Translations under genes and position numbers: made by a program
Shown: piece after piece, positions 1-59,842 of the stretch
Numbering within the stretch: position 1 is the first letter of the stretch
Layout of the letters: every line of letters starts with the position of its first letter
Notes under the pieces: model-generated
The model's input: the letters and a program-made list of their open reading frames with translations, nothing else
Database searches by the model: none
Told to the model about the DNA's origin: nothing
Source: a virus
Direction: 5' to 3' (one strand)
DNA: 64,000 bases
IMG/VR virus record: IMGVR_UViG_3300031707_000005
Span: 1 to 64,000 of that record

Positions 1-545
1 ATCCAATCGGACCTGTGGCACCTTGAAGTCCGGGTATTCCAGTCGCACCCCTCTGGCCCGTTGGGCCCTGAACACCAGTCGATCCACGCGGTCCTGTAGG
101 ACCGGTTGGACCAGTCGGGCCCTGTGGGCCTGTAGGACCGGTAGGTCCAACTGGACCGCCAGCTGGACCAGTAGGGCCTTGCGGACCCGTAGGCCCTGTG
201 GCACCCGTGGCACCTGGAGGGCCTCCGAAAGGGCCCGTTGGGCCTTCAACACCAGTGGCACCCTGTGGTCCAGTGGCACCCTGGGGACCCGTGGGACCCG
301 TTACACCGGTAACACCTTGCGGTCCAGTACAACCAGGACCTGTAGGGCCCTGAACGCCAGTCGGACCTTGCGGACCCGTAGGACCCGTGGCACCCGTAAC
401 ACCCTGCGGACCAGTCTGTCCTCGTGGTCCAGTTGGACCCGTGGAACCAGCAGGGCCCGTAGGGCCAGTCGCACCAGTAGGACCCTGAGGACCTGTGGGT
501 CCACCAGACGGACCAGTAGCGCCAGTCGGACCTGGCGGGCCCGTG
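1..545 (-). repeat. Nine-base-periodic collagen-coding repeat
   Basis: A Gly codon recurs every 9 bases on the minus strand (GGN, seen as NCC on the plus strand) with GC-rich flanking Pro and Thr codons. Such tracts are prone to slippage, so copy number may vary between isolates. Confidence 0.85.
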
Positions 546-586
546 ACTCCTACTCTTGTTATTCCGCGAGGATTCTCAATTCCCAT
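1..586 (-). CDS. Collagen-like Gly-X-Y repeat protein, probable tail fibre (C-terminus outside window)
   Basis: The minus strand is open from ATG 586 to the window edge, at least 195 codons. After a short leader ([16 protein letters not shown]), every third residue is Gly ([13 protein letters not shown] and similar), a collagen triple-helix pattern found in phage fibres and appendages. The 3' end lies outside the window. The ATG follows the TAA of the upstream gene after one base, so translation is probably coupled. The role in trimeric fibre formation is inferred from this family. The receptor-binding domain would lie beyond the window. Plus-strand ORFs here are shadows of the repeat. Confidence 0.85.
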
Positions 587-9187: not shown

Positions 9188-9688
9188 ATGGCATTCATAG
9201 GAATTCATGTTCCGGAAGACGTTTCGAATAGTTTATCTATGGTGGAAACACCTGGAAAACAGGCAGAACCGGAAGAAATGCATGTTACTCTAATATATCT
9301 CGGAAAAAACGCACCATTATCTAACATAATAAAGGCATTCGCGGTTCTAGCATCTTTCGCTCAAAAAAGGAAGCCATTTTTGATCGGATGTGCGGTAAGA
9401 ACATGTTTCCCCGAAAACCCAGATGACGGAACTCCGATAATAGCGAGAGTTCAGTCTCTAAGTCTTGCAAAGCTGAGATCTGAATTAATGGTAGAGATGA
9501 ATATGGCCGGTGTTCAGTATATTGATAAATACCCGGAATTCAAACCACATATAACACTTTCCTATTCAGATGAACCGTGTGAAGACTTAGGGTTCAATCC
9601 TATAGTATGGAAAGTCAACGCACTAACTATCTGGGGTGGAGAGAGTATGAAAGATAGAGTTGTAGCTTCAGTGGAACTAGAAGGCTGA
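9188..9688 (+). CDS. 2H phosphoesterase (LigT / 2'-5' RNA ligase-like)
   Basis: A 166-residue plus-strand protein with the two hallmark motifs of the 2H superfamily: HVTL at about residue 32 and HITL at about residue 116. This family hydrolyses 2',3'-cyclic phosphates or 2'-5' linkages in RNA or nucleotides. Phage members can destroy cyclic-nucleotide or 2'-5' oligonucleotide defence signals or help tRNA repair. Length agrees with the family. There is only a weak ribosome binding site. It lies between two oppositely oriented operons, so it is probably expressed alone. The substrate cannot be told from sequence. Confidence 0.85.
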   Translation: MAFIGIHVPEDVSNSLSMVETPGKQAEPEEMHVTLIYLGKNAPLSNIIKAFAVLASFAQKRKPFLIGCAVRTCFPENPDDGTPIIARVQSLSLAKLRSELMVEMNMAGVQYIDKYPEFKPHITLSYSDEPCEDLGFNPIVWKVNALTIWGGESMKDRVVASVELEG

Positions 9689-10204: not shown

Positions 10205-11914
10205 TCAGGGAGCCGGAGGTTGGTAACGACCACCAACGGACAAAGGACTACCTCCGCCACAACTTCCTGACCAAGCAATAAGTTCAGAGCCTGTCCAGGC
10301 AGTAGCAGACGAATCAACAAGCGTTGAGGGTGGAGCGGAAGTGTCAGTAAGCATTAAATCTGTAACGCGGTCATAAAACGAAACGGTAGTTATACCAGGG
10401 CATGATCCTGTGGACTTAAGAAAGAAAATACGACGTCCATCATCAGCATTCCTACTTGGAACAAAACTTGGGACGCCAGAAGGAACTGGATTAGCGGAAA
10501 ATGTATCGGTAGAAACAGTGTATTTCAGTGCGTCTTTAGAGAAACCACCCCATATATCGATGTTACCAGAGTCATCAATGAAAGCATTCGTATATCCGGT
10601 AGTCGGAAGTGATGAATTGATATTCTTACATCCGGAGAGCGAACAAGAGGCATCAGTCCACGAACGAGCAACCGGGTCGAACACGGAACCATCTGCCAAA
10701 TAACCAGTCAAATCTTGACCACCAAAAACGAAGAGCTTCTCCGTAGACGGAATTGATACCATCGCGAAATCAGATCGGGCCTGAGGAGCCGTACCGGATG
10801 TTGCCACGAAAGAAAAGAAATCGGTTCCTCCAGCACTAGCAAACTCAAGCGTACCGATCAGAGTTCCACTCGAATCAGTGAAACCGCCGAATACATAAAT
10901 ACCACCGGTATAAGTGGTTACAGCTTTATGTCCATATCGGGCGTTCTTGAGCGGAGACGACTTCCCCCAAGTGTCACGAGATGGATCGTATACGTAAACC
11001 GCACTAGTTGGATTAGAACTAGAGTCAAGACCACCAATGGTCGTGAAGAGTTTTTCAGAAAAAACAGCAGCATGTCCAGTTGTCGGAGGAGGCGCACCGA
11101 CAATAGAAAGCGACTGCCAAGCAGGTGTCGGAACGCCACTGATGCATGTTCGTCCATGAACGGCTTTATAACCACATGCACCGCAGTTCATCGGATCAGT
11201 ATTGAGATCCACACAAGACCCGCCGCAAACAGTATCGGTACACGAACCGACTGGACCGGAGTCAGACCCGGAGTCGATACCGGAGTCAGACCCGGGATTA
11301 CCGACGGAACCTGAGTCAACGATAGGATCAGAACCGGAGTCCACAGTCGAACCAAAACCTGAGTCAGTACCTGAATTCACACCAGAGTCATGACCATTCA
11401 TTTGACCATCAGAGTCGTTATTCACGTCAAAAGATGAGAGTTCGTCAACATTAACATTGGCATCGACACAGTTTCCAGCACTACACGTTTGAGTGTCTGT
11501 ACATTCAGAAATTTTTCCAATACATAGGTCATCGAAAAGAAGTGGCAAGAGGAGTGCCTCACCGGATCGATATCCGCTAATCGCTCGCACACGAGCAATT
11601 TCAATACCAGATGAATCGAGTGCAGTTGCCGTAATCTCATAAACACGAGTCACATCGTCATTTTGAGGAACGAGAGAAAACTGCAGAGGCCAACGATATT
11701 TATCCGAGTCGATGATCATCTTCCGATCAAAACGGTTCTCCCACTCCGTGTTCTTACCGTGACCAGAACGAACGCGAATTTCTACACTTTGTGTTTGTGT
11801 ACGAGTATCTAGTTGCGCATCGATTTGTACCATAACCTGAGTAGAAGAGGTGTTTTTAACGGAACATGCAATGATGAAAAATGAAAGAATAAATGTGAAT
11901 ACTTGAAAAATCAT
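10205..11914 (-). CDS. Kelch-repeat lipoprotein of myxobacterial type
   Basis: A 569-residue protein. Residues 1-17 form a lipoprotein signal peptide ending FIIAC (lipobox, Cys17). An N-terminal beta domain follows to ~140, then a Cys patch (CSAGNC), a Ser/Gly/Asp linker with repeated DSG units (~165-220), a Cys-rich module (CTDTVCGGSC ... NCGACG) and five or so Kelch blades with GHxAV and IYVFGG signatures to the C-terminus. This combination is typical of Myxococcota surface lipoproteins. In the phage it would sit on the infected cell's membrane after export. It overlaps the upstream TPR gene by ATGA, so they are co-translated. Likely acquired from a host. Function in infection unknown. Confidence 0.85.
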   Translation of the reverse strand: MIFQVFTFILSFFIIACSVKNTSSTQVMVQIDAQLDTRTQTQSVEIRVRSGHGKNTEWENRFDRKMIIDSDKYRWPLQFSLVPQNDDVTRVYEITATALDSSGIEIARVRAISGYRSGEALLLPLLFDDLCIGKISECTDTQTCSAGNCVDANVNVDELSSFDVNNDSDGQMNGHDSGVNSGTDSGFGSTVDSGSDPIVDSGSVGNPGSDSGIDSGSDSGPVGSCTDTVCGGSCVDLNTDPMNCGACGYKAVHGRTCISGVPTPAWQSLSIVGAPPPTTGHAAVFSEKLFTTIGGLDSSSNPTSAVYVYDPSRDTWGKSSPLKNARYGHKAVTTYTGGIYVFGGFTDSSGTLIGTLEFASAGGTDFFSFVATSGTAPQARSDFAMVSIPSTEKLFVFGGQDLTGYLADGSVFDPVARSWTDASCSLSGCKNINSSLPTTGYTNAFIDDSGNIDIWGGFSKDALKYTVSTDTFSANPVPSGVPSFVPSRNADDGRRIFFLKSTGSCPGITTVSFYDRVTDLMLTDTSAPPSTLVDSSATAWTGSELIAWSGSCGGGSPLSVGGRYQPPAP

Positions 11915-12549
11915 TCGGCCCTCGACAAAGTCATAATTTCCACACCAGTCCTACTATCCAGTGGAGAAGATTTACTGACGCCACCAGAAGATGCAGCGAT
12001 CGCAACCACGACGCCGGTTACAACAACTGCTCCAATTCCAGTCCAAAACCACCATCGGGAAGTGATCGGTTTACCATCTTTAAAATTAATCGGTTCAGTA
12101 ATCGGTTCAGTTACATGCGATTGAGTTTTCCGTGCAGTCTCTTCTGGCGTCGGAACAACCGGCGTACTGGCTAAAACTGGTTGCTGTGTAACAACTGAAG
12201 ACTCACGTTCAGATTTAGCAGCTTCGAGTGCATGAATCCTACCTTCAACTTCCATGCGGTTATCGGATTCTGGAACTTGAGATAGGTATGCTCGGAACGC
12301 CCAAAGGGCTTTATCATCATGACGCAAACGGTCATGAGCAAGACCAAGGTTATAAAATAGTGTGGGGCGTCCAGAAAGGTCGTACGCTTCTTGCCAGCGT
12401 GAGAGTGCAGCGTCATACCTGCCGCCATCGAACGCTTCACGTCCAGCCTGAAACAGAGCCTTCGCCTCTGCGTCTCGAGTCCCGTCTGCGTGGACTGAAG
12501 AAGCAACCATGGTTAAAATGGCAAACAAAATGTACGGAATTTTTTCCAT
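11911..12549 (-). CDS. Signal-peptide TPR protein with C-terminal membrane helix
   Basis: A 212-residue protein with a signal peptide (PYILFAILTMVASSVHA-D), two TPR units at ~25-105 (LFQAGREAFDGGRYDAALSRW and YNLGLAHDRLRHDDKALWAF), a Pro/Thr linker, and a membrane helix at ~172-192 (WFWTGIGAVVVTGVVVAIAA). The pattern is very common in myxobacterial genomes, where such proteins accompany protein kinases or surface lipoproteins. It overlaps the lipoprotein gene by four bases. Membrane-anchored with the TPR domain outside the cytoplasm is inferred from topology. Confidence 0.85.
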   Translation of the reverse strand: MEKIPYILFAILTMVASSVHADGTRDAEAKALFQAGREAFDGGRYDAALSRWQEAYDLSGRPTLFYNLGLAHDRLRHDDKALWAFRAYLSQVPESDNRMEVEGRIHALEAAKSERESSVVTQQPVLASTPVVPTPEETARKTQSHVTEPITEPINFKDGKPITSRWWFWTGIGAVVVTGVVVAIAASSGGVSKSSPLDSRTGVEIMTLSRAE

Positions 12550-12584: not shown

Positions 12585-13160
12585 TCATCTCTCACGAGGC
12601 TTCACGACTGGACTGACAGTGATTTCAACCTTCTTACCGCGAACCACTTCAAAGAGCTCTCGATCAAAAGGCGCACCAGCGTAATATCCCTCCGGGACGA
12701 TCCAATGTGGATGCTTGGCACAAGAACCGTCCTTGCAACGGACGATTTCTTTCATCTTAAAAGGGTCGTATCCAGACCCCGGAACTCGAAAGTCCTCGGG
12801 GTTATTCGGGTCTATGATGGCACTGAAAGAAGTTCGGTGATAATATAGATCACCGAACTCAAGACCGATGAGTGGTAAACGAAGCACGTAAGCCGAATCA
12901 TGTTCGAAATCCGTGGTCCCCTCGAGAAGGTAAGACTTCAAAAGATATCGACTCTGATTTTCAAATTTCTGAATGTTGGCTTCACCGAAGGTGAGCCACT
13001 CAACTCTAGTATTCCAGTCTAAATGAATTGTAACTGTTGTCACACAAGTTTTCGATCGACGAGTGATTTTTCGAAAATCAACACGGTCAATCTTTACCTT
13101 TGAAAGTTTTTCCCTCTCTTCAATTTGATAGGCTTCGAGGGCAGAATAAATATTTCGCAT
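12585..13160 (-). CDS. Hypothetical protein upstream of the TPR-lipoprotein pair
   Basis: A 191-residue protein from ATG 13160 with CAGGAG well upstream. It mixes helix (N-terminal KIDRVDFRKI) and beta-rich stretches, including RCKDGSCAKHPHWIVPEGYYAGAPF near residue 140. There is no signal peptide, although it is co-oriented with two secreted proteins. Two closely spaced Cys (CKDGSCAKH) could bind metal. No family recognised. Whether it is part of the host-derived cargo block is an inference from position. Confidence 0.6.
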   Translation of the reverse strand: MRNIYSALEAYQIEEREKLSKVKIDRVDFRKITRRSKTCVTTVTIHLDWNTRVEWLTFGEANIQKFENQSRYLLKSYLLEGTTDFEHDSAYVLRLPLIGLEFGDLYYHRTSFSAIIDPNNPEDFRVPGSGYDPFKMKEIVRCKDGSCAKHPHWIVPEGYYAGAPFDRELFEVVRGKKVEITVSPVVKPRER

Positions 13161-13226: not shown

Positions 13227-13496
13227 ATGTTCCCGAAATTCCAAAAGAAAGCTCCATCGGAAAAACCGACAGAACAGGCCAGCGAAGAAGACTACGAGTT
13301 ATTCCATACACTGTGTACCGTTTGGTCAGATTGTACGTACGCCCAACAGTATGCAGATGACCAGGACCGTAGTGTCGCACCACTTGCAGCTCGCGAAATA
13401 CGAAAAGCTATTGAAGAATCCATATATGCTGATATGGAAATAGGACTAGATCATATAGAATTACTCAGACGAATTGAATCATCTGAGCCCATCTAG
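13227..13496 (+). CDS. Small acidic hypothetical protein
   Basis: An 89-residue plus-strand frame starting ATG 13227, with a Lys/Glu-rich N-terminus (KFQKKAPSEKPTEQASEEDYE) and a helical C-terminus (REIRKAIEESIYADMEIG). Its 3' end overlaps the convergent release-factor gene by 18 bases. There is no clear ribosome binding site, which lowers confidence. A coding-like amino acid pattern and divergence from gene 12585-13160 support it. No family recognised. Confidence 0.5.
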   Translation: MFPKFQKKAPSEKPTEQASEEDYELFHTLCTVWSDCTYAQQYADDQDRSVAPLAAREIRKAIEESIYADMEIGLDHIELLRRIESSEPI

Positions 13497-14160
13497 ATCA
13501 CCACGCAAAAACGCCTTTACGGTTATTTGACGTCCAGTCCGATGGTCGGTAACCTGATCTCGTTGTACGGCTATAGTGCGAATTTTATCGCCTCGCATAC
13601 CTGAACCTACCTGATCTTTTCGATCTTGAGCTCGACCGTCAAAAGCCGCCGACTTGATTCGCTCCTGAAGTCTGGACCGAAGAATTTGTAAAGCTTCTTC
13701 TTTATTTTGATGTTGCGAACGTTCTGATTCACAACGAACCATAAGACCAGTAGGTAAATATGTCGCCTGAACAGCCGACTCAGTTTTATTCCGGTGTTGT
13801 CCGCCCGCCCCGGAGCCTCTACAAGTCTTAATTTCCACGTCTCGCATATCGAGCCGCATCTGTTGTTCCGTGACTTCCGGAAGTACGGCAACAGTCACCG
13901 TGGACGTATGGATTCGACCCCGCTTTTCATTTGGGGGCTGGCGCTGCCAACGGTGGCCACCTGATTCTCGAGAAAAGAGCTGGGCAACGTCTTTACCGCT
14001 TGCACGGAAGACAAGGATGCCGGGGCGCTCATCTAAAATAGATAGGTCAAAGAAACCTCCGAGCTCCCATCCGGCAATAAACCGCGAATTGTTCTAGAAC
14101 CAGGGATTTGGCGTCGTCGCCACCCTCTGCGCCGCGTATCTCAACTATGACAGTAGACAT
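13479..14160 (-). CDS. prf-like: Peptide-chain release factor, joined by programmed +1 frameshift
   Basis: Translation starts at ATG 14160 behind GGAAGGAG. Frame 0 runs 37 codons (EIRGAEGGDDA, as in RF1 domain 2) to CTT-TGA at 14052-14047. Reading resumes one base later at GAC and runs 189 codons to TGA 13479, giving a 226-residue protein. It has GRIHTSTVTVAVLPE and the catalytic GSGAGGQH motif (GGQ at ~119-121), plus GSGMRGDKIRT and VTDHR, closer to RF1 than RF2. Domain 1 is absent. The codon-reading tripeptide position holds PPN rather than PxT or SPF. Homology is continuous across the junction, which argues against a random frameshift mutation. Confidence 0.85.
14046..14061 (-). promoter_or_regulatory. 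prfB-type programmed +1 frameshift site
   Basis: On the minus strand the order is CGGAGG, then TTT, then CTT TGA C: a Shine-Dalgarno-like hexamer three bases before a CTT codon and a UGA followed by C. This is the arrangement of the bacterial prfB site (AGGGGG, TAT, CTT TGA C). There, slow UGA termination allows the Leu tRNA to slip, so factor scarcity raises production. The same self-regulation is inferred here. Confidence 0.85.
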
Positions 14161-14186: not shown

Positions 14187-14226
14187 ATCTGGATAGTATT
14201 CATCTATGTTTATCCACTCCGATTTC
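14187..14226 (-). repeat. Direct repeat copy 1, upstream of the release-factor gene
   Basis: About 38 bases (core ATCGGAGTGGATAAACATAG, continuing ATGAATA..ATCCAGAT) are nearly identical to 14737-14775. A TATAAT at 14180-14185 follows and the release-factor start is 20 bases further on. TGGATA and TATCCA within the copy can pair around a 15-base loop. One reading frame gives SEWINIDEYYPDV then a stop. Confidence 0.8.
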
Positions 14227-14232
14227 ATTCGT

Positions 14233-14697
14233 CTAAAGTTGGATAATTTCGATTGGAGGGCCTTCAACGTCCGACCCAGTCTCGCCGTTGATGATGAGTC
14301 CGTCGAACCCGAGATTTTTGAGGATTGGAAGAAGACCCTCGATAAGAGTCGAGATATCGTCCGCCATTTCGGATTCGACACCAGAGGTTTCGTAGATGAA
14401 ATTCAGATGGTCTTCATTGTCGAGGTCAAGAAGAGCGACCTTCGAGAACGAAGGAAAGTCATACTCCTGGACTTCATTGTCCGGGTAGATGGAACGATAT
14501 AATTCCGCGCCCTCCGGAGATACGTGATAATATGAACCTGCCGGACCAACCCTATAGATTTTCCCGTTCCATTGAGCATCTTCGTAGTCTTTGAGAGACT
14601 TCTTTATATATGAAGGTGGATTCTTCAAGTACATGGACTTCGGAACAGTCTTATCGGAAGCAATTCTTTTTGCTATATTGTTAATGTCTATAGTCAC
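14233..14697 (-). CDS. Hypothetical protein between the two direct repeats
   Basis: A 154-residue protein from GTG 14697 (no strong ribosome binding site, an ATG at 14634 is the alternative). The N-terminus has IAKRIAS, the Arg/Lys-hydrophobic-Ala-Ser motif seen in many virion genes here. The rest has a YYHVSPEGAELYRSIYPDN segment and a C-terminal LLPILKNLGFDGLIINGETG that recalls the closing strands of ADP-ribosyltransferase-like folds. That resemblance is weak and not a function call. It lies between direct repeats and upstream of the release factor. Confidence 0.65.
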   Translation of the reverse strand: MTIDINNIAKRIASDKTVPKSMYLKNPPSYIKKSLKDYEDAQWNGKIYRVGPAGSYYHVSPEGAELYRSIYPDNEVQEYDFPSFSKVALLDLDNEDHLNFIYETSGVESEMADDISTLIEGLLPILKNLGFDGLIINGETGSDVEGPPIEIIQL

Positions 14698-14736
14698 ATT
14701 CTTTTTACATTAATAATACTTTATAATTATGCAATC

Positions 14737-14775
14737 TGGATGATATTCATCTATGTTTATCCACTCCGATTCGGG
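14737..14775 (-). repeat. Direct repeat copy 2, upstream of gene 14233-14697
   Basis: Near-identical to 14187-14226. It differs mainly by a swap of two bases and one other position inside the hairpin arm (TGGAT/ATCCA instead of TGGATA/TATCCA). CATAAT and TATAAA follow it before the GTG at 14697. In one frame the encoded peptide SEWINIDEYHPDC matches copy 1, suggesting remnants of a coding sequence as well as a possible operator. Confidence 0.8.
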
Positions 14776-15956: not shown

Positions 15957-16477
15957 ATAAGATTCGTGAGTTCCCAACACTCTTCTAAAGAATAATCAAG
16001 AGCCTTCAAAACGGATGAATTTTTAGAGCCGCCATTTAATTTAAGAGCTTCCCAAACACGCGAACGAATATTTCCACGAAGTCTATACTCCGGGTCTGCA
16101 TGATATTTAGATTTAAAGGATGCACGGCGTTCATCTCGTTCTACTGCATAGCGTTCTCTCCATAATCGATTCCTACGAGCTTTATTCTCAGGCTTTTGCT
16201 TGTAAGCTTTAGAACGAGCCTTGAAATATGCAGCGTTGGCGAGGTATGTATCTTTACCTCGCTTTTTTGACATGACGACTCGTTCAGGCTTCGAAGAATA
16301 AGCTTTATTCTGAGCCTTGATCAGCGGCTGAGTCGTAGGATCATGGTAACGCTTCTTCCGGCTCTCTCGAGCATCTTTCCGCTCGCATTCAATGCATTTA
16401 GGCGGATAATACTTCCCCTTCATAAGTCGGAATTTTGAGAGTTCCGACTCTCCACATCCAGGACATGGCTTCTTCAT
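15938..16477 (-). pseudogene. Truncated HNH-homing-endonuclease-like protein
   Basis: ATG 16477 is chosen over an upstream GTG because the zinc finger starts there (MKKPCPGCGESEL with CPPKCIEC following). The middle is a Lys/Arg repeat (KARSKAYKQKPENKARRNR). The DPEYRLRGNIRSRVWEAL, SSVLKALDYSLEECWELT segment is the N-terminal half of a common free-standing HNH endonuclease. In full members a WHIDHI catalytic region follows, but here the frame stops after LTNLIYFFSL. It is likely inactivated by 3' loss at the junction with the plus-strand gene. Confidence 0.6.
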
Positions 16478-16567: not shown

Positions 16568-17458
16568 TCAGCGTGTCACAATGAGACGCACGAGACCACG
16601 CGGGTTGTACGCGCCGATACCAAGATTCTCAAACATAGAGAACCCTATCGTACGTTCTTCCGGGTTATCCGCCGAGAGAACCGTGAGCTCTGTACGGACC
16701 GGAATACGGCCGAAGTGCTCGGGTTCGCAGCAGATGTAGACAACGCCCTTCGGAACGAGACGGCTGACGATGAACTGAGCATTCCAGCCCGTGCTCATCA
16801 TACCGGTCTTCCACAGCGTCGCCTGCGACTCGATATCCAACACGTCGCGACCGAACTTGCGGATATCCGCGTAGTCCGTTGCGTTCATGTAGACGCGAGC
16901 AACACGGAGGTCGTGCGCTTCGATCTCGGCAAACGCGTCCGCGAGGACGGCAGGCGAGATAGGAGCCACCACCGGGATGTCTGGGTTCGTTCCGCCCGGA
17001 AGCGAATCGAAACCATTCACCGCGATCGCGTCCATGATGCTGAAGACGCGATCGTCTTCGGCAGCCTGAACCTGCGCCTTACCAAGGTCCTGCATACGCT
17101 TCAGGAGGTCATAACGACGCTCCTTGATCTGCGTCAGCGGTGCCTTGGGGAGAGCTGCGATCTCGAAGAGCGGGAAAATCACGCGACGTGGCTTCGCCAC
17201 GGCGGTAATTGACTCGCCTTCTTCACCAATGACGTATGCAACGACATCGGGGTCCTTGTCGTAGATCGGAATCGCGCCATCGGGGAGCTGCTCGACCAAG
17301 AAGGTCTTACGACCAACGGACGAGTAGTCTCTACGCTCGCGCAACGGCTGGATCATCGATGCCGCGAGTCTGCGGCGACCGGCTGAAGAGCCGATGTACT
17401 GGTCGATGAGCTTCTCTTTGACAGTATTGTCAACAACTTTAACGTCAAACGGATTCAT
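16568..17458 (-). CDS. Major capsid protein (HK97-type)
   Basis: A 296-residue protein from ATG 17458. The N-terminus (MNPFDVKVVDNTVKEKLIDQ, then RRLAASMIQPLRERRDYSSVGRK) and the IPIYDKDPDVVAYVIGEEGE segment match a group of phage major head proteins. Later VARVYMNATDYADIRKFG and LTVLSADNPEERTIGFSMFENLGIGA fit the A and P domains of the HK97 fold. It forms the capsid shell. The coding region is unusually GC-rich compared with neighbours, consistent with high expression. The strong hairpin downstream and a separate leader upstream support high-level transcription. Confidence 0.85.
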   Translation of the reverse strand: MNPFDVKVVDNTVKEKLIDQYIGSSAGRRRLAASMIQPLRERRDYSSVGRKTFLVEQLPDGAIPIYDKDPDVVAYVIGEEGESITAVAKPRRVIFPLFEIAALPKAPLTQIKERRYDLLKRMQDLGKAQVQAAEDDRVFSIMDAIAVNGFDSLPGGTNPDIPVVAPISPAVLADAFAEIEAHDLRVARVYMNATDYADIRKFGRDVLDIESQATLWKTGMMSTGWNAQFIVSRLVPKGVVYICCEPEHFGRIPVRTELTVLSADNPEERTIGFSMFENLGIGAYNPRGLVRLIVTR

Positions 17459-19686: not shown

Positions 19687-22419
19687 TTAAATGTTAGAGA
19701 CGGAAGCAATCCGTCCCTTCCAAATCAAAAAGTTTTCTTCATTCGAAGAGAGATCTCGACCTAGCCTAAGTTTGCAGGCTGCAAGAAAAGATGTCTCACT
19801 TGGGAAGTTCAGCATCGGTCCAACTTTCATCGCAGTCTTGTAAAGGTGCGATGAATAATTGCGTCCATAGACGCGATCCTCAATCCATGAAAGGACTATC
19901 AAATCCTTTGGAGTCATTTTAGACGCCCGAACGGCTTTTATACCACCTTCATGAACGATTCGATACGCCTTTGAAGACCACTTATGAAGAAGTGGAACTT
20001 TAGGATATAACTTTTGAACTCTACGATCGAATTCATTAGAAGAACGAACAAAGTTATCATTACCTTCGAGAACACTTGGAGCAGGGGCGACAGTTCCAAC
20101 GTCTTCAGGTTTCGGCTCGAGCTTTTCACCGAGTTTATCAACCATGATTGATAAAAGTTGCTCTTGAGCTTTCTCAAGCATCTCATCAATCTTATCGGAT
20201 TTGGGTCCGGCAGGTTCAGATGGATCCTGGCCACCCTGATCCTGGCCACCCTGATCCTGGCCACCCTGATCCTGGCCACCCTGATCAAGACCTTGATCTT
20301 GATCGCCTTGATCAAAAAGTTGACTAAGATCCTGGTCCTGACCACCCTGATCTTGTTGAGCAGTGCGCGAAGAAGCTGCTTTCTTTATACCATCCGGTAA
20401 CGGAACGTCAGTACGAATTTTATAAACCTTCTCGGCTTCTTCAAGACGTGCAGCAATTTGCGTGCTATCCGGGTTCAGAATATTTCGACGAACAGCACCA
20501 CGGAAAGCAGGGTTTCTAACCCACGATGCTTCGATAAACTGATTCGAATTTGGTATAGACGCGTGTCCAATTAACTCAGCTACCGGGTGTTCAATACCCT
20601 GCTCGTCGGAAAATTTATTTCCTTTACCAACATAAAGAACACAAGGACAAAGTTGAGAATCGTCTGCAGCAACATTTCCGCAGCAAGTGCAGATAGTGAA
20701 AAGAGATATACAATTAGAAACTCCAACGCCGTTTACAACATATGAATGATCCACATCAACTTGAAGATCATATACAAATCCATTTAATTTCGAATTTTCA
20801 ATATTCTTGACGACAGAGTATACATGGCCTTTGGAAATCCAACGATCACAATTCCCGGAATTTCTTTTTTCGAAAGAGGTACCGGATTTTCTGATTTTCT
20901 CCGACGGAATGATGAAGGAACCAGAGTTTCTAATCCGAATCTGGTGATCAATACCAGAAGAATTCGGAAGCATCTTTGTCCCTTTCCTCGGGATCGAAGA
21001 TAATGTTCCGATGAGACCACAGCGGTTCAGAATAGTAAGAAACTGAGTTGCGAGACCCTTGTTACGAGTAGATATGAAAACTTGTTTCGTTCCACGTTTG
21101 GTCGAACTAATACACCCATCAGAGTCTATGACACCCGAAAGAAATGCAAGTTGATGTTTTTTCGGCCACAAAAGAACATCTCGTTCAAGGCATTTATCAA
21201 GAGCTCGTCGACCCGTAACATGACGATCAACCAAACCACGAACGGCTCTTGATGAACTAACGAGGTAGTTGGCTCCTCTACGCGTCGAACGCGAAACAGT
21301 TTTCGGAATAGAGCCGCCGACTGCTATTCTCATTTCCTTGGCAAGCCAAGAAATGCGATTTATTTCGGATTCAACGAAGTTCGTTATTGATGCGTGTTCT
21401 TCCGAAGCATCAAGGCAGAAACCAACACCAACGGTTGAGTCGTGTTTATTTTCGAATTTCCAACCATCTCCAACCCAAAGACCAAGGAGCCGAGCTTCCG
21501 ATTCCGTGCAAGAAGGGACCACTTCGCCCTTCAAAATCGGAGTAGCAACAATATCTCCAATTTCAAGGCATCCGGCTTCACGATATTCAAAACCGTAAGC
21601 TTCCGGACGAAGACGCTTCTTACCACGTCGTACATCATATTGCACGATATCGCGAGGGACAGCATAAAATTTATGATTATTTGTCGCATGGATCGAGGGA
21701 AGTCCTACCACCTTCACACGACGCATAGACCAACGGTTTTCCCTGATCTGAAGATTATCGACTCGACAGATATTTCCCTTTTGGGAAATGACTTCCATAT
21801 CAGGGCGAATCTCTTCAATAGGGAGAGTAGTCCCATCTGCCATTAGAACGGGCGTACCCGCTTCAAAGCAGCCCATGGACATCGCGTTAATATCACCGGA
21901 CACGATATCCGTAACAAGCTGACGGTGCTTACGATCAGTAGCAACCAGTATGTCAATATAAGCTGATTTCCCGAGGTCTCGGGCGATGGCGTCAACAATG
22001 AAGCCTTTTGATAAATCCGGAAGCTGGATATGCTCGAGATAGTTATGAGCTCCGATGAACGTTCGGTATGTAGAAAGAAGAAGCGAACGTTCCCAAGCAT
22101 CGCCGTTATTATTAATAATCTCGTGACATTCCGGTTTAATACGGAAATCAGGCCAACGAACATCAATCTGAACGCCCTGAGTCATACTGCGTCCGGTCTT
22201 CACACCCTTGGGGGTGTATGTATCGACGGACGCGACAATCGTGGCATGTGATAGAAGATATTGCTTCGGATCGCATTTACGAAGAACGGTCTTAGCCACA
22301 CGGTGTATATGATCACGTGGAACCGCACCTTCGTTTTGATTACGAAGAGTTTCCATCCAGTCATCAAATTCGATTCCAGGTCTCGAGACAATAGCTTTAG
22401 CTGTGCGTCTAAATGACAT
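19687..22419 (-). CDS. Prohead maturation/structural protein interrupted by an intein
   Basis: A 910-residue frame from ATG 22419. Residues 184-569 form an intein. The spliced 524-residue protein has DIDILVATDRKHRQLVTDIVSGD, GDINAMSMG joined to CISLFTICTCCGN, and a GHASIPNSNQFIEASWVRNPAF block. This matches a phage family found beside portal and capsid genes and thought to be a capsid maturation protease or core protein. A Gln/Gly/Asp repeat follows (~700-740), then a helical C-terminus ending GRIAS. The catalytic role is not proven by sequence. The Cys pair CTCC probably binds metal. Confidence 0.7.
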   Translation of the reverse strand: MSFRRTAKAIVSRPGIEFDDWMETLRNQNEGAVPRDHIHRVAKTVLRKCDPKQYLLSHATIVASVDTYTPKGVKTGRSMTQGVQIDVRWPDFRIKPECHEIINNNGDAWERSLLLSTYRTFIGAHNYLEHIQLPDLSKGFIVDAIARDLGKSAYIDILVATDRKHRQLVTDIVSGDINAMSMGCFEAGTPVLMADGTTLPIEEIRPDMEVISQKGNICRVDNLQIRENRWSMRRVKVVGLPSIHATNNHKFYAVPRDIVQYDVRRGKKRLRPEAYGFEYREAGCLEIGDIVATPILKGEVVPSCTESEARLLGLWVGDGWKFENKHDSTVGVGFCLDASEEHASITNFVESEINRISWLAKEMRIAVGGSIPKTVSRSTRRGANYLVSSSRAVRGLVDRHVTGRRALDKCLERDVLLWPKKHQLAFLSGVIDSDGCISSTKRGTKQVFISTRNKGLATQFLTILNRCGLIGTLSSIPRKGTKMLPNSSGIDHQIRIRNSGSFIIPSEKIRKSGTSFEKRNSGNCDRWISKGHVYSVVKNIENSKLNGFVYDLQVDVDHSYVVNGVGVSNCISLFTICTCCGNVAADDSQLCPCVLYVGKGNKFSDEQGIEHPVAELIGHASIPNSNQFIEASWVRNPAFRGAVRRNILNPDSTQIAARLEEAEKVYKIRTDVPLPDGIKKAASSRTAQQDQGGQDQDLSQLFDQGDQDQGLDQGGQDQGGQDQGGQDQGGQDPSEPAGPKSDKIDEMLEKAQEQLLSIMVDKLGEKLEPKPEDVGTVAPAPSVLEGNDNFVRSSNEFDRRVQKLYPKVPLLHKWSSKAYRIVHEGGIKAVRASKMTPKDLIVLSWIEDRVYGRNYSSHLYKTAMKVGPMLNFPSETSFLAACKLRLGRDLSSNEENFLIWKGRIASVSNI
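20226..20285 (-). repeat. 15-base repeat, four copies (Gly-Gln-Asp-Gln-Gly)
   Basis: CCTGGCCACCCTGAT repeats four times exactly on the plus strand, coding QDQGG on the minus strand inside the maturation protein's disordered segment. Confidence 0.9.
20713..21870 (-). other. Intein in the maturation protein gene (386 residues, LAGLIDADG type)
   Basis: It starts CFEAGTPVLMADGTTLPIEE (splicing block A, Cys1) and ends with VYDLQVDVDHSYVVNG ... SN followed by extein Cys, the block F/G pattern with a terminal Asn. In between are two dodecapeptide-like motifs (LLGLWVGDGWK and FLSGVIDSDGC), so it carries a LAGLIDADG homing endonuclease and is likely mobile. Extein joins at G|C, giving MSMGCISLF. Block H shows His before the Asn region in HSYVVNG. 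Confidence 0.9.
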
Positions 22420-37944: not shown

Positions 37945-38061
37945 TTATCTAGGCATAACGTCGAAAAAGAAGCTCATTAAGTATGGATGAAGGTCACGGA
38001 ATAAAACCGAGTCCCGTACATCCCGATCGGTGTTATCCAGTAATAGTGAGGATTTGAGCAT
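37945..38061 (-). CDS. Possible 38-residue overlapping small protein
   Basis: ATG 38061 to TAA 37945 gives 38 residues (DSVLFRDLHPYLMSFFFD in the middle). It overlaps the sigma-like gene's 3' end by 29 bases and fills the 90-base gap to the next gene. AGGG lies eight bases before the ATG. It could be a real small protein, or the tail of the sigma-like gene reached by a frameshift. Confidence 0.35.
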   Translation of the reverse strand: MLKSSLLLDNTDRDVRDSVLFRDLHPYLMSFFFDVMPR

Positions 38062-38806
38062 CCCCTCTATCCCTGAATTGCGGTAAAGATACTTCATGCA
38101 GTATATTGAAGTGCTTATCAGATATGGCGAAGTAAACAGTCCAATACTTACCGAATCTAGAGTTATTGATCGCATCATCAACAGCTCTCTCAGCTGTGGC
38201 GATTTCTTCAGCACTTCGACCATGTTTTCGAAGCATTTGAACTTGAACTTGCTTTTCGCGAGCTTCCTCGGCAATGAGGTCCTTAATTTTCTGAAGAGCT
38301 CGAAAGAATCTATGTCGAACACGACCCTGTGTCAAATTCATTTGTTTAGCAATTTCTGATTGACATGTAGTTTCATACATACGCCAGAGAATCTCACGAT
38401 CTTGATCACAAAACTTGGATCCGAGCTCAAGTTCGAACTGATCACGATCAAGCTCCGGAATAGTGCGCAAAAATTGAATACGCTTAATTCCTCTATGTAG
38501 ACGATATGAAACGGCAGCTTGAGTGATCCCGAAAAGTTTCGCGATCTGCTCTTGTTTCATTTTATCTTTATGATATAAACGGATCAAATCCGCTTCTCGA
38601 GGCGGAATCCTATCTAGATATCTAGATATAGCATCAAAATTAAGTGAATTACCTTCTGTAGCAAGGTCTTCTTCAACCTCTGGGGCGAGGTTATGTTCAA
38701 TCAGACTTTCAAGGTCATCTGAATCATGATCATATCCGAGACGATCCTGATTGCTAAACCTCGAAGAAAGACTACTCGGATCCTGAATCAAAATATGGGT
38801 CGACAT
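38033..38806 (-). CDS. Protein with two sigma region 4-like HTH domains
   Basis: A 257-residue protein from ATG 38806 with a GGAGAG site. Residues ~65-115 (IPPREADLIRLYHKDKMKQE, QIAKLFGITQAAVSYRLHRG) and ~132-178 (FCDQDREILWRMYETTCQSE, IAKQMNLTQGRVRHRFFRAL) each fit a sigma-70 region 4 helix-turn-helix. No region 2 is visible. It may be a phage sigma-like factor or region-4-type regulator that directs host RNA polymerase to late genes. Two copies in one protein are unusual. Confidence 0.7.
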   Translation of the reverse strand: MSTHILIQDPSSLSSRFSNQDRLGYDHDSDDLESLIEHNLAPEVEEDLATEGNSLNFDAISRYLDRIPPREADLIRLYHKDKMKQEQIAKLFGITQAAVSYRLHRGIKRIQFLRTIPELDRDQFELELGSKFCDQDREILWRMYETTCQSEIAKQMNLTQGRVRHRFFRALQKIKDLIAEEAREKQVQVQMLRKHGRSAEEIATAERAVDDAINNSRFGKYWTVYFAISDKHFNILHEVSLPQFRDRGDAQILTITG

Positions 38807-55825: not shown

Positions 55826-58800
55826 TCAACTACAACCTGTCGTAGTTCCACATGAGGAACAAAGATAACAAGAACCATTACGTTGAGTTATGTTACCACA
55901 ACGAGCACATGGAGGACCGCCAAGGTTCTTACGCGGCGTCTTTATCGTAGCATCAGTAGAATGTAACGGAGGCGGCGGTATTGAAGGCGGCGATGAATGG
56001 TATTGATCCGATACTTCATCCTTCGCAATGCTTTCATTAACGTCGTTGTCCGACTCATCAGAACGATTAGAAAGACCGGAGTGTTCCCCATTATAATAAT
56101 GAACATCAAGAACTTTGAACATATAATCATATAAACTCTTAGCAAACCGAACTTTCTTGTTCGTTGTCATCCCAGCGGGTTCAAATCGGGTATCGATGAA
56201 ACTTGAAATAAGTTTCGGTAAAGGAATCCCGTATTGAATGGCAATAGAACAGAGCTGGGTGAAACCATCTATCAGACCAGATACAGTGCTACCGGGTTTC
56301 CCGAGTTTAAGAAAGATTTCACCCGGACGACCGTCAGGATACTCACTAACAATAAGATATCCCTTATATCCGTCAATTTCAAACTTATGCCGCCAACTCT
56401 TAACATCATTCGGCATTTTCTCACGACGAACAACAGGAACTTGAATTTCACGAACAACTTCTCTGATGTTCATGTCAACGGCTTTTAAGGCCGCTTGCAG
56501 TGAATCCTTGGAGTCCTTCGTCGTGAGAGGCTGAGACGCCTTACACTTATCACGATATAGAGCTATACACTTCAAACCGAGACGCCACGATTCTTCATAA
56601 ATCTTAGCAATCTCGTCAGAGGTAACGCTCTCAGGAAGATTAACAGTCTTGCTCATCGCACATGTAATAAGTGGCTGGATGGCAGCCATCATTTTGACAT
56701 GCGCCATAGGCGATAGATACCGCGCCGATGGACCGGCAGGCATCGCAGTGTCGAAAACATGAATATGCTCGTCCTTTAGACCGGGAGCTCCTTCTATCGT
56801 GTCATTAGATTCGACATGATTGCAAATCTCTGCAACTTCATCTGTCGAATATCCGAGATTCACCAGGGCCTCGCGAACACCGAAGTTGATGAGCTTCATT
56901 ACGCCGCCACCGACGAGCGACTTATAACTCACAAGTGAAAACGCCGGTTCGATACCAGTAGTGTTCATTCCCATCAGGAACGATATAGTTCCGAGTGGGG
57001 CCTGCAGTGTGGCTTGAGAGATATTATAGCCGTACTTTTCACCAAGAGAGATGGCTTCTTTCCAGACTTCAGCGGACAATGAAACCACGTCATCATTGAC
57101 CGGATCCTTCGGAAGGTGCCAACGCTCGATGATTTTTGCATCAGCTTCCTGATGCATTCGCATCACGCGAAGCATATCTTCACGGTTCTTCTCGAATTCA
57201 GAGAATGCGCCGACACGAGCAGCAAGCTTTGCTGATGTTAGATAAACAATTCCGGTCATGAGAGATGCCATGCGAGCGGCAACAGCACGACCCTCATCGG
57301 AATCATATCCATAACCGAGATTCATGACGAGCGCACCAAGATCACCATAGTTAGTGCCAATGGGACGAAGCTTTATTGAATTAGACCCGATTTCGTCAGT
57401 CGGATATGCAGCCTTCGCAACAATAGCCATCTGAGCGGTACTAAAGATTCTCGTGGCTTGAGTAAATCTCTCAGGAACAAATTTGCGGCCATCGAAAAAC
57501 TTCGTCAGGTTAATCGCACAGAGATTACAGGCTGTGTTGTCAACATGAAGGAATTCACTACAATTATGAGCAACAATCCCGTTTGCGATGAGCGAACTAG
57601 TTTCAGGCTCGGTAATGTCGTAAACGGGAACAATCTCACCATTGTTAATCACACGGACAACATCATCTGTCCATTTATCGCGGCCGTTATGATTAATTGA
57701 ATCAGGAATATCGGAGAATCGAGCTTGTTTCCTATCAGAAAGCAATCCGATTGATTTCATAAGATTTCTGAAAGTTTTAAGACTCTGGCCAGTGATAACA
57801 AGATCATTTGTCTTCTCTTTCGAGAAATACGTTCGAGTTTCGCCCGACACTGTCGTATATGAAAACGTCGGTTTATCGTTAGGACGACGATCTTTGTAAA
57901 GAGTGCTGTTAACACCAAGATTCAAAAGAAGATCCTGGACTCCGCGTAGAAGTTCAAGACTAGTAGAACTAAAACGAGCGTCAACATTCTTCTTCGGTTG
58001 AATATTGAAAGTCCCATCTGCAGAAAAAAGACCAGCAAGAAATGCAAGTTGTTCCTGAACTGTTGATCGAAAAACGGCATCCATGACTTTTTTAGTCGGA
58101 GCTTTAGACCCAGGTTCACAAGCCCAGACCAACATGGATTCCCAAATGGCTTTCCTGTGAATCCGAATATAATCCGGGCTTTCACCGACAGATCCATTTT
58201 GATATTTTTGAGAGAATGGGATGTCTTGATCACGGAAAAATGCAAGAATCTTATCCATTGCATCTTTGTCATCTTTACCAAAAACGAGCCCAACTTCGTG
58301 AGTATTTCTACAAGGAAGTGCTTTCAAGATCCATCCATCACCAACAATCCACCCAGCAATCTTGTGCCACATGAGATCAAGACCAGATGACTCCGTCGAG
58401 TATGCACCAACTCCGGCTTGCAAACAAAGAACACTATCTTCCGTCAGATCGGATGCCTCTACCCACCCATCAGTCGTCATAAGACGATGATCAGGGGTTA
58501 CCTTCAGTATTCTACCTCTTCTCGTATGAACTTCAACAACATTTTTCACACCAGTCGGAAAAACTGTGGCTGCTTTCAAAACAGGTCCATCTGGTGTTTG
58601 AACGAGAGTCAAAAATTTCGAAGAACAACCTGATGACTCGAATTCTGCACACAAATCTTCAATACGTACTAAGCCAAGCTCAGTGGCAATGCGAGTATCG
58701 GGATGGAAGCATGGATTTGAAGCACGAATCTTCCCATTCTTTGGGGTAGTGTGCCACTTGTTTATATTGTCGGAGAATTGAACGCCCGGGTCACCACAAC

Positions 58801-59842
58801 GCCACGCAGCATCGGCAACTTCTTTCCAAATTTCACGAGCTTTGTAGTTATGAACTACTTTTCCACTCTTACGCTCACGAGTTTGCCATGAACCGTCATC
58901 GAGCATGGTTTGCATAAACGCGTCAGGAACAGATACAGAGTGATTTGCGTTCTGATATGGAACTATTTTGTATGCACCATTCGGGTCGTCATACTCTGCA
59001 GAATAACCAATAGAAACAAGATCATGAGCAAGCTTCTCCGACCACGACTTGCAACGAATGAAACCGGGACGACCATCACGTGTTTCAAGAATGTCAGGAT
59101 GATCCATATCCATAACAACCATCTTCGCTGCGTTTCTCGTAGCACCACCCGATTTCATCGCACCAGCGTATGAATTATTCCCCTGCATCCAAGACATCGG
59201 ACCAGAAGTATACGAACCAGCAGAAATCTTTTCATAAGAAGAACGGAGATTTGATAAATTAGCACCGGAGCCGGATCCACCACGGAAAATGGTAAGCTCT
59301 GACGTCTGAAAACGCATAATGTCATCAAGAGAATCTTCAACACCAGAAATGAAACAAGCCGAAGCTGCTTGTTTACGACCTTCAACACCAAGGTTAAACC
59401 AAACCGGAGAATTAAATGCTCCGTATTGATGCAAAAGAGCATGAATAAGCTCTTCTTCAAATACTTGAGCATCAATTTCAGTATTGAAAAAGTTCTGTTC
59501 TTCCGCCCAATTTCGAATGGCACAACAAACACGAGTAAACATTTGCTTTACTGATGTTTCACGAACACCATTAACAACACGAAGATATTTATCTGCTACA
59601 ACATTTACGTTATTTTGAGTCCACCAAGCAGGAACCTCAATATTCTTTTGTTCGAAAACAATCTCACCTTTACCATTACGAATACAGGCATCAGCAGTCT
59701 TCCATTCAACTTGGTCAAACGGATGAGATCCTTCTGAGGTAAATACACGAGGCCAATGACCCGCATCGCGTGATATCAAGTCCTTAGTGGAGTGAGCCCT
59801 AAGGTTTACTACTGGTGCGGATATAGCCTCAGTGTTTGACAT
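55826..59842 (-). CDS. nrdJ: Class II (B12-dependent) ribonucleotide reductase NrdJ, with intein
   Basis: A 1338-residue frame from ATG 59842 with a strong GAGGAGG site inside the delta gene's end. Spliced length ~955 matches NrdJ. Landmarks: FNSPVWFNLGVEGRKQAASA with CFISGVEDS, FRGGSGSGANLSNLRSSYEK, GDPGVQFSDNINKWHT, RASNP joined to CSEF, ACNLCAINL, and a C-terminal CARCGNITQRNGSCYLC tail of class II enzymes. It reduces ribonucleotides to dNTPs with adenosylcobalamin. The phage would depend on the host's cobalamin. Confidence 0.93.
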   Translation of the reverse strand: MSNTEAISAPVVNLRAHSTKDLISRDAGHWPRVFTSEGSHPFDQVEWKTADACIRNGKGEIVFEQKNIEVPAWWTQNNVNVVADKYLRVVNGVRETSVKQMFTRVCCAIRNWAEEQNFFNTEIDAQVFEEELIHALLHQYGAFNSPVWFNLGVEGRKQAASACFISGVEDSLDDIMRFQTSELTIFRGGSGSGANLSNLRSSYEKISAGSYTSGPMSWMQGNNSYAGAMKSGGATRNAAKMVVMDMDHPDILETRDGRPGFIRCKSWSEKLAHDLVSIGYSAEYDDPNGAYKIVPYQNANHSVSVPDAFMQTMLDDGSWQTRERKSGKVVHNYKAREIWKEVADAAWRCGDPGVQFSDNINKWHTTPKNGKIRASNPCFHPDTRIATELGLVRIEDLCAEFESSGCSSKFLTLVQTPDGPVLKAATVFPTGVKNVVEVHTRRGRILKVTPDHRLMTTDGWVEASDLTEDSVLCLQAGVGAYSTESSGLDLMWHKIAGWIVGDGWILKALPCRNTHEVGLVFGKDDKDAMDKILAFFRDQDIPFSQKYQNGSVGESPDYIRIHRKAIWESMLVWACEPGSKAPTKKVMDAVFRSTVQEQLAFLAGLFSADGTFNIQPKKNVDARFSSTSLELLRGVQDLLLNLGVNSTLYKDRRPNDKPTFSYTTVSGETRTYFSKEKTNDLVITGQSLKTFRNLMKSIGLLSDRKQARFSDIPDSINHNGRDKWTDDVVRVINNGEIVPVYDITEPETSSLIANGIVAHNCSEFLHVDNTACNLCAINLTKFFDGRKFVPERFTQATRIFSTAQMAIVAKAAYPTDEIGSNSIKLRPIGTNYGDLGALVMNLGYGYDSDEGRAVAARMASLMTGIVYLTSAKLAARVGAFSEFEKNREDMLRVMRMHQEADAKIIERWHLPKDPVNDDVVSLSAEVWKEAISLGEKYGYNISQATLQAPLGTISFLMGMNTTGIEPAFSLVSYKSLVGGGVMKLINFGVREALVNLGYSTDEVAEICNHVESNDTIEGAPGLKDEHIHVFDTAMPAGPSARYLSPMAHVKMMAAIQPLITCAMSKTVNLPESVTSDEIAKIYEESWRLGLKCIALYRDKCKASQPLTTKDSKDSLQAALKAVDMNIREVVREIQVPVVRREKMPNDVKSWRHKFEIDGYKGYLIVSEYPDGRPGEIFLKLGKPGSTVSGLIDGFTQLCSIAIQYGIPLPKLISSFIDTRFEPAGMTTNKKVRFAKSLYDYMFKVLDVHYYNGEHSGLSNRSDESDNDVNESIAKDEVSDQYHSSPPSIPPPPLHSTDATIKTPRKNLGGPPCARCGNITQRNGSCYLCSSCGTTTGCS
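57563..58711 (-). other. Intein in NrdJ (383 residues, LAGLIDADG type), at the catalytic Cys
   Basis: Starts CFHPDTRIATELGLVRIEDL and ends VYDITEPETSSLIANGIVAHN before extein Cys. Two dodecapeptide-like motifs occur (IAGWIVGDGWI and LAGLFSADGTF), so a homing endonuclease is present. Splicing at NP|C rebuilds NPCSEF, where the Cys is the thiyl-radical Cys of class II reductases. Insertion immediately before it makes enzyme activity depend on splicing. Confidence 0.92.

Follow-up and report, generated by a model that had tools for sequence, protein, structure and literature searches.

The window analysed here, a stretch of 64,000 nucleotides (positions 1 to 64,000 of the viral contig IMGVR_UViG_3300031707_000005, which has 84,623 bases), carries a pair of genes in which a phage surface Kelch protein has most likely been fused to a host-type TPR/lipoprotein display pair. 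A TPR gene (11911-12549) is followed by a gene for a composite Kelch lipoprotein (10205-11914), and our leading interpretation, held at a probability of about one half, is that a TPR/lipoprotein operon of the type found in Polyangiales displays a phage Kelch protein on the cell infected by a huge phage. The pair itself and its capture by a huge phage are what is new here; no papers on such a TPR/lipoprotein pair were found in the literature searched, and PADLOC-DB, which covers known defence families, gave no match for it. The pair provides a rare and testable gene-based link between a widespread lineage of huge phages and the Myxococcota.

Composite Architecture of the Gene Pair

The Kelch and TPR open reading frames proposed in the initial annotation are present, both on the minus strand (no strand had been given), as are all the features of the pair described below. 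The proposed ATGA overlap was likewise seen at 11911-11914, where it joins the TPR stop codon to the lipoprotein start codon in a -4 arrangement that recurs in bacterial pairs, and secretion signals were read by inspection in both products.

The TPR protein (212 aa) consists of a Sec signal, a TPR domain, one C-terminal transmembrane helix and a short tail. Its signal peptide (aa 1-21; 12487-12549), read from the sequence and not by a predictor, is MEKIPYILFAILTMVASSVHA followed by DG, with the cleavage site between SVHA and DG. The TPR domain (about aa 29-112; 12214-12465) matched Pfam TPR_16 (3.8e-5) and TPR_2 (4.1e-5), both under Pfam's own cut-offs; the assignment was confirmed by homologues aligning along the whole protein, and a low-confidence single-sequence model (pLDDT 54) forms helix pairs in this domain. 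Alignment of homologues placed the transmembrane helix (aa 166-187, starting WWFWTGIG) and a 25-residue tail ending GVEIMTLSRAE at 11914-12054. Because a single-pass helix follows a cleaved signal, the conserved tail would lie in the cytoplasm, a position that would not obviously help a lipoprotein partner and that counts against display.

The lipoprotein (569 aa) begins with a signal of 17 residues (11864-11914), MIFQVFTFILSFFIIA followed by C, with the lipobox IIAC. This signal was read by eye, and homologues keep the lipobox at the same place; it is unusual in having no basic residue ahead of the hydrophobic stretch, which counts against the predicted lipidation. The following region (aa 18-160; 11435-11863), hereafter the N-domain, has four conserved cysteines and is common to Myxococcota lipoproteins that often lie beside TPR genes. 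It matched no Pfam family, either in the window protein or in the bacterial relatives scanned, and its low-confidence single-sequence model (pLDDT 53) has six strands. An Asp/Ser/Gly-rich linker (aa 161-225; 11240-11434) leads to a Stig1-like Cys motif, CGGSCVDLNTDPMNCGACG (aa 226-261; 11132-11239; Pfam Stig1 3.9e-6). The NCBIfam model NF041328, "MXAN_6577-like cysteine-rich protein", matches the Cys-rich stretch at aa 133-261 with 33 bits against a cut-off of 100, so that only a module is shared. The remainder is a Kelch beta-propeller (aa 262-569, ending GGRYQPPAP; 10205-11131) that matched the Kelch_KLHDC2 family (1.3e-22) and Kelch_1 (7e-14), with repeats passing the Pfam cut-offs (PF24681, 80.7 bits vs 50; Kelch_1, 51.4 vs 20.1). 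The description of a single Kelch lipoprotein with a TPR partner therefore had to be revised for a composite protein: the tie to TPR genes holds for the N-terminal ~160 residues only, whereas the Kelch half is common to stand-alone lipoproteins.

A chimera of bacterial and phage DNA was excluded on both sides of the pair. In a different metagenome, another viral contig (L002/L188) has the same TPR start beside the same phage genes (~99.9% identity), which rules out an assembly chimera on the TPR side, and the Kelch locus is syntenic with those of the related phages L094 and L235.

Relatives of the Pair in Myxococcota

The search started from four loci matching the Kelch protein, including a Polyangiaceae MAG and a Myxococcales MAG, and 282 Myxococcota genomes were then searched with the TPR protein and the lipoprotein (E 1e-12); the N-domain searches covered that phylum. 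Relatives were found in 65 of the 282 genomes for the TPR protein and in nine for the lipoprotein. Genome G276 was the best for both: its TPR protein is the closest bacterial match (52% identity, E 2.3e-51), and the first ~160 residues of the lipoprotein are 41% identical to its counterpart. The N-domain Cys pattern is present in the window protein by alignment; the N-domain HMM gave 8.6e-65, a value obtained with the window protein itself as part of the model, and the independent single-sequence match to G276 gave 2.4e-39. The two genes lie side by side at two loci in G276 with the same -4 overlap, and adjacent TPR and N-domain relatives also occur in G129, G172, G181 and G215. G276 belongs to the same order as the L004, L005 and L006 genomes; L005 is the Polyangiaceae MAG, and the NCBI taxonomy places Polyangiaceae within Polyangiales, Myxococcota. 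In these and other Polyangiales pairs the TPR protein has a signal, a WWFW membrane helix and an xTL tail as in the phage, and the four-Cys N-domain, the gene order and the 4-nt overlap are the same. However, a Kelch half like that of the phage was found in none of the sampled bacterial N-domain proteins, and the window pair has phage composition.

An N-domain profile detected 2 to 23 genes per genome in 20 genomes of the order of G276, with 23 each in G181 and G425; at 1e-12 the domain was present in 15/235 Myxococcota genomes, the search being made within that phylum. When 60 further regions were fetched by the N-domain alone, a same-strand TPR-family gene adjoined 31 of 63 N-domain genes so chosen, nearly always upstream and often with the start codon at -4 or -1. 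The first 20 loci, whose selection had rested in part on TPR, do not enter this count, which is a minimum, some contigs being cut off at that point; a genome contains only tens of TPR genes of this family. When every distinct N-domain gene is considered, 44/81 had a TPR neighbour and about half had none. The C-terminal halves of the bacterial N-domain lipoproteins vary, comprising FG-GAP, Dicty_CTDC, MopE, disintegrin-like plus lamin-tail, and DUF1554 modules. Bacterial Kelch lipoproteins of other families in some cases (L170-L172) have an overlapping downstream TPR gene, an arrangement that fits a general lipoprotein/TPR partnership.

The TPR tails also differ with the neighbourhood. An xTL/AL C-terminal tail was found in 23/43 TPR proteins adjoining N-domain genes vs 2/43 others (p=6e-7, descriptive because the motif was worded after the tails were inspected), while the last residue was aromatic in 30/43 TPR proteins without an N-domain neighbour vs 7/43 beside N-domain genes. 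Myxococcota TPR proteins without such a neighbour (e.g., L048, L050 and L051) often end in G-x-V-x-G-R-F, with the terminal aromatic residue. The window TPR protein has the partner-linked xTL/AL tail.

The myxobacterial character first assigned to the pair agrees with these results, as the closest relatives lie in one Myxococcota order and the MXAN_6577-like match reaches 4.8e-8; within the searches possible, the closest homologues were thus not confined to phages or to an unrelated phylum. The view that the two genes belong together is likewise upheld by the recurrence of adjacency and of the 4-nt overlap in bacteria. At the level of sequence, a putative Myxococcota origin of the TPR/N-domain unit is supported, and conserved adjacency together with the partner-linked TPR tail supports a probable TPR/lipoprotein partnership.

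The Kelch Half and the Phage Locus

The Kelch half has a different set of relatives. Its best bacterial matches are two stand-alone lipoproteins of G358, a genome of the same order (42% and 40% identity), which have no N-domain, and stand-alone Kelch lipoproteins without N-domain or TPR occupy the same phage locus in L094/L189 and in L235. These proteins resemble the window protein in their lipobox, a short Cys motif and a Kelch domain ending GGR(Y/F)QP, and differ from it in that neither an N-domain nor a TPR neighbour was found. The five Kelch sequences (the window, two of G358 and two of related phages) form one clade (100/100), inside which the branching is unresolved. Of the relatives, 41 extend 5 kb or more beyond the capsid gene; a Kelch lipoprotein is present in two of these only (L094/L189 and L235). 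The Kelch lipoproteins at this locus in the three phages share 32-37% identity, compared with 90-97% for their capsid proteins. In another related phage, the region after the capsid gene carries a thaumatin-family lipoprotein (L206:6167-7147, plus strand; Pfam 4e-15), suggesting that this is a locus for surface lipoproteins.

The TPR gene was found, among the viruses searched, only in the window phage and the near-identical L002/L188. No homologues of the TPR protein or of the whole Kelch protein were detected in GenBank phages, none of the Kelch half in plasmids, and scans of viral contigs with the N-domain and TPR profiles returned nothing. Inheritance of the pair as one phage unit was excluded, since in related phages the Kelch lipoprotein occurs with neither N-domain nor TPR; for the same reason, Kelch function in general does not require the TPR protein. 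Most simply, a stand-alone Kelch lipoprotein would have come first and later been fused to an N-domain accompanied by its TPR gene; a loss of the N-domain and TPR gene in the other phages is a less simple account.

Composition, Phage Lineage and Host

The composition of the pair was compared with that of the phage, and the GC and GC3 of both genes equal those of the phage. The phage has a GC content of 44% vs ~66% in the bacterial relatives, and the GC3 of both window genes is 35-37 vs 73-75 in the pair of G276. As the composition is fully phage-like, the pair is not a recent import, and recent transfer from bacteria is excluded by GC and GC3. The genes have either long been resident in low-GC DNA or derive from an unsampled low-GC host.

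The major capsid protein (16568-17458, minus strand) places the contig in a lineage of huge phages. Both terminase and portal have matches in a 485-kb uncultured phage (41% and 47.5%) and in jumbo phage Tunturi 5, and the gene order of the structural module is collinear with that of the 485-kb phage, whose capsid protein is 76% identical. Among viral contigs the capsid protein has 437 relatives, the best 80 of which share 75-100% identity and lie on contigs of up to 619 kb. The window is thus probably part of a huge-phage genome. The GC content of the 80 fetched capsid relatives ranges from 37 to 67%, so the lineage may well span several hosts.

The suggestion that the pair points to the host phylum was borne out in part. 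It is favoured by the relatives of the pair in Myxococcota; however, a terminase search for prophage relatives gave a match in only one of 282 Myxococcota genomes, and a weak one, and the GC contents (44% vs ~66%) differ. Taken together, a host in Myxococcota is likely, as judged indirectly from sequence comparisons.

Proposed Role of the Pair

A mechanism can be proposed on the basis of the gene order, the domains, the homology, the conserved pairing and the locus shared with related phages, all of which are observed. The bacterial unit pairs an exported TPR protein, which carries a membrane helix at its C-terminus, with a lipoprotein in which the N-domain is conserved and the C-terminal module varies. 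During infection, both phage-encoded proteins would be exported by Sec and the lipoprotein would be lipidated, while the TPR protein would be held in the membrane by its one helix, facing the periplasm. We infer that the TPR protein binds the N-domain, and may thereby help to sort, stabilise or present the lipoprotein. The next step would be presentation of the Kelch propeller at the surface, where it could cover or bind a surface component (receptor masking or another change of contact), and the inferred effect, most likely, would be a cell refractory to a second phage or one with altered surface contacts; an effect on predation or adhesion, as first suggested, would be conjectural. More tentatively, and with some doubt, Polyangiales may possess an undescribed modular surface-display system, in which a TPR protein partners an N-domain lipoprotein whose outer modules can be exchanged, and a locus for surface lipoproteins may allow huge phages of this lineage to insert Kelch or thaumatin-like modules of their own into the display routes of the host. 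The two-gene surface unit with exchangeable outer modules is of interest in itself, as it recurs and its key domain has no Pfam family. If the display idea is true, phages borrow a host surface-protein chassis to remodel the infected cell.

Other roles were weighed against surface display. The Kelch propeller could be part of the particle, as a fibre or whisker accessory, as in jumbo phage CBB, whose Kelch protein CBB_552 was found in mature particles, Kelch proteins also being reported from other giant phages (PMC5259590). This would agree with a position ~4.7 kb from the capsid gene and with a weak hit (1.1e-4) in PHROG to a family of virion structural proteins. However, CBB_552 is a virion protein, whereas an envelope location is indicated by the lipobox in the window, L094 and L235 proteins and by the signal and membrane helix of the TPR partner, and presence in so few of the well-covered relatives would be odd for a particle part; we regard a virion role as rather improbable. 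That the pair is a passenger, host genes acquired by chance, still present and useless to the phage, is unlikely: although a single phage type has the TPR gene and N-domain, in an accessory region of high turnover, both frames are intact, their phage-like composition and GC3 require long residence, and the Kelch lipoproteins kept at one locus in three phages, far more divergent than the capsid proteins, look more like fast-changing but retained genes.

Two further possibilities also place the pair in the envelope. It could shield the infected cell, for example from predators or lysis from without, and not act on other phages. Ordinary envelope roles are plausible given the many N-domain genes kept by bacterial genomes such as G181 and G425, and we consider such protection unlikely to about the same degree as a passenger. 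A very improbable role is that of a kin-discrimination or contact device, in which outer-membrane exchange would carry the lipoprotein from one host cell to another, or the lipoprotein would change how cells recognise each other, to the benefit of the phage. Modular, polymorphic myxobacterial lipoproteins, the SitA toxins of Myxococcus, are exchanged between cells (PMC5562445, PMC8546572), and the N-domain family has the same modularity. However, its C-terminal modules are propellers, Cys-rich or binding repeats and not toxins, the window protein has a Kelch half and a TPR partner with no immunity-like gene recognised, and outer-membrane exchange in the likely host is conjectural.

Accessory Interval and Other Features of the Window

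The interval around the pair is flanked by a conserved phage gene (9705-10103, minus strand; 69% identical in a related phage). This neighbour and the one at 12585-13160 had no PHROG match and nothing above the Pfam cut-off. Further out, 9188-9688 (plus strand) encodes a 2H phosphoesterase (60% identical in a related phage) whose relatives include LigT and Acb1, an anti-CBASS protein (Pfam Acb1 1.4e-6). The accessory interval also encodes a protein with an RF-1 (GGQ) domain (13479-13898, minus strand), and the same interval of a related phage (L094:11191-11613, minus strand) one resembling peptidyl-tRNA hydrolase 2; both functions are of the type that rescues ribosomes or tRNA. A 38-nt direct repeat (14187-14224 and 14734-14771, 95% identical) flanks the ORF at 14233-14697. 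At ~15957-15980, a near-identical contig (L096, 4029-5039) is ~1 kb longer, with an additional endonuclease III-like gene and an extended HNH gene; the two are copies of one phage that differ by an indel here.

Elsewhere, inteins with a LAGLIDADG domain lie in a structural-module protein (19687-22419, minus strand) and in a class II ribonucleotide reductase (55826-59842, minus strand). A protein with two sigma-70 region 4 matches (38033-38806, minus strand) has a relative in the 485-kb phage, and a collagen-like protein with GPTGPTG repeats (2-586, minus strand) runs off the contig edge.
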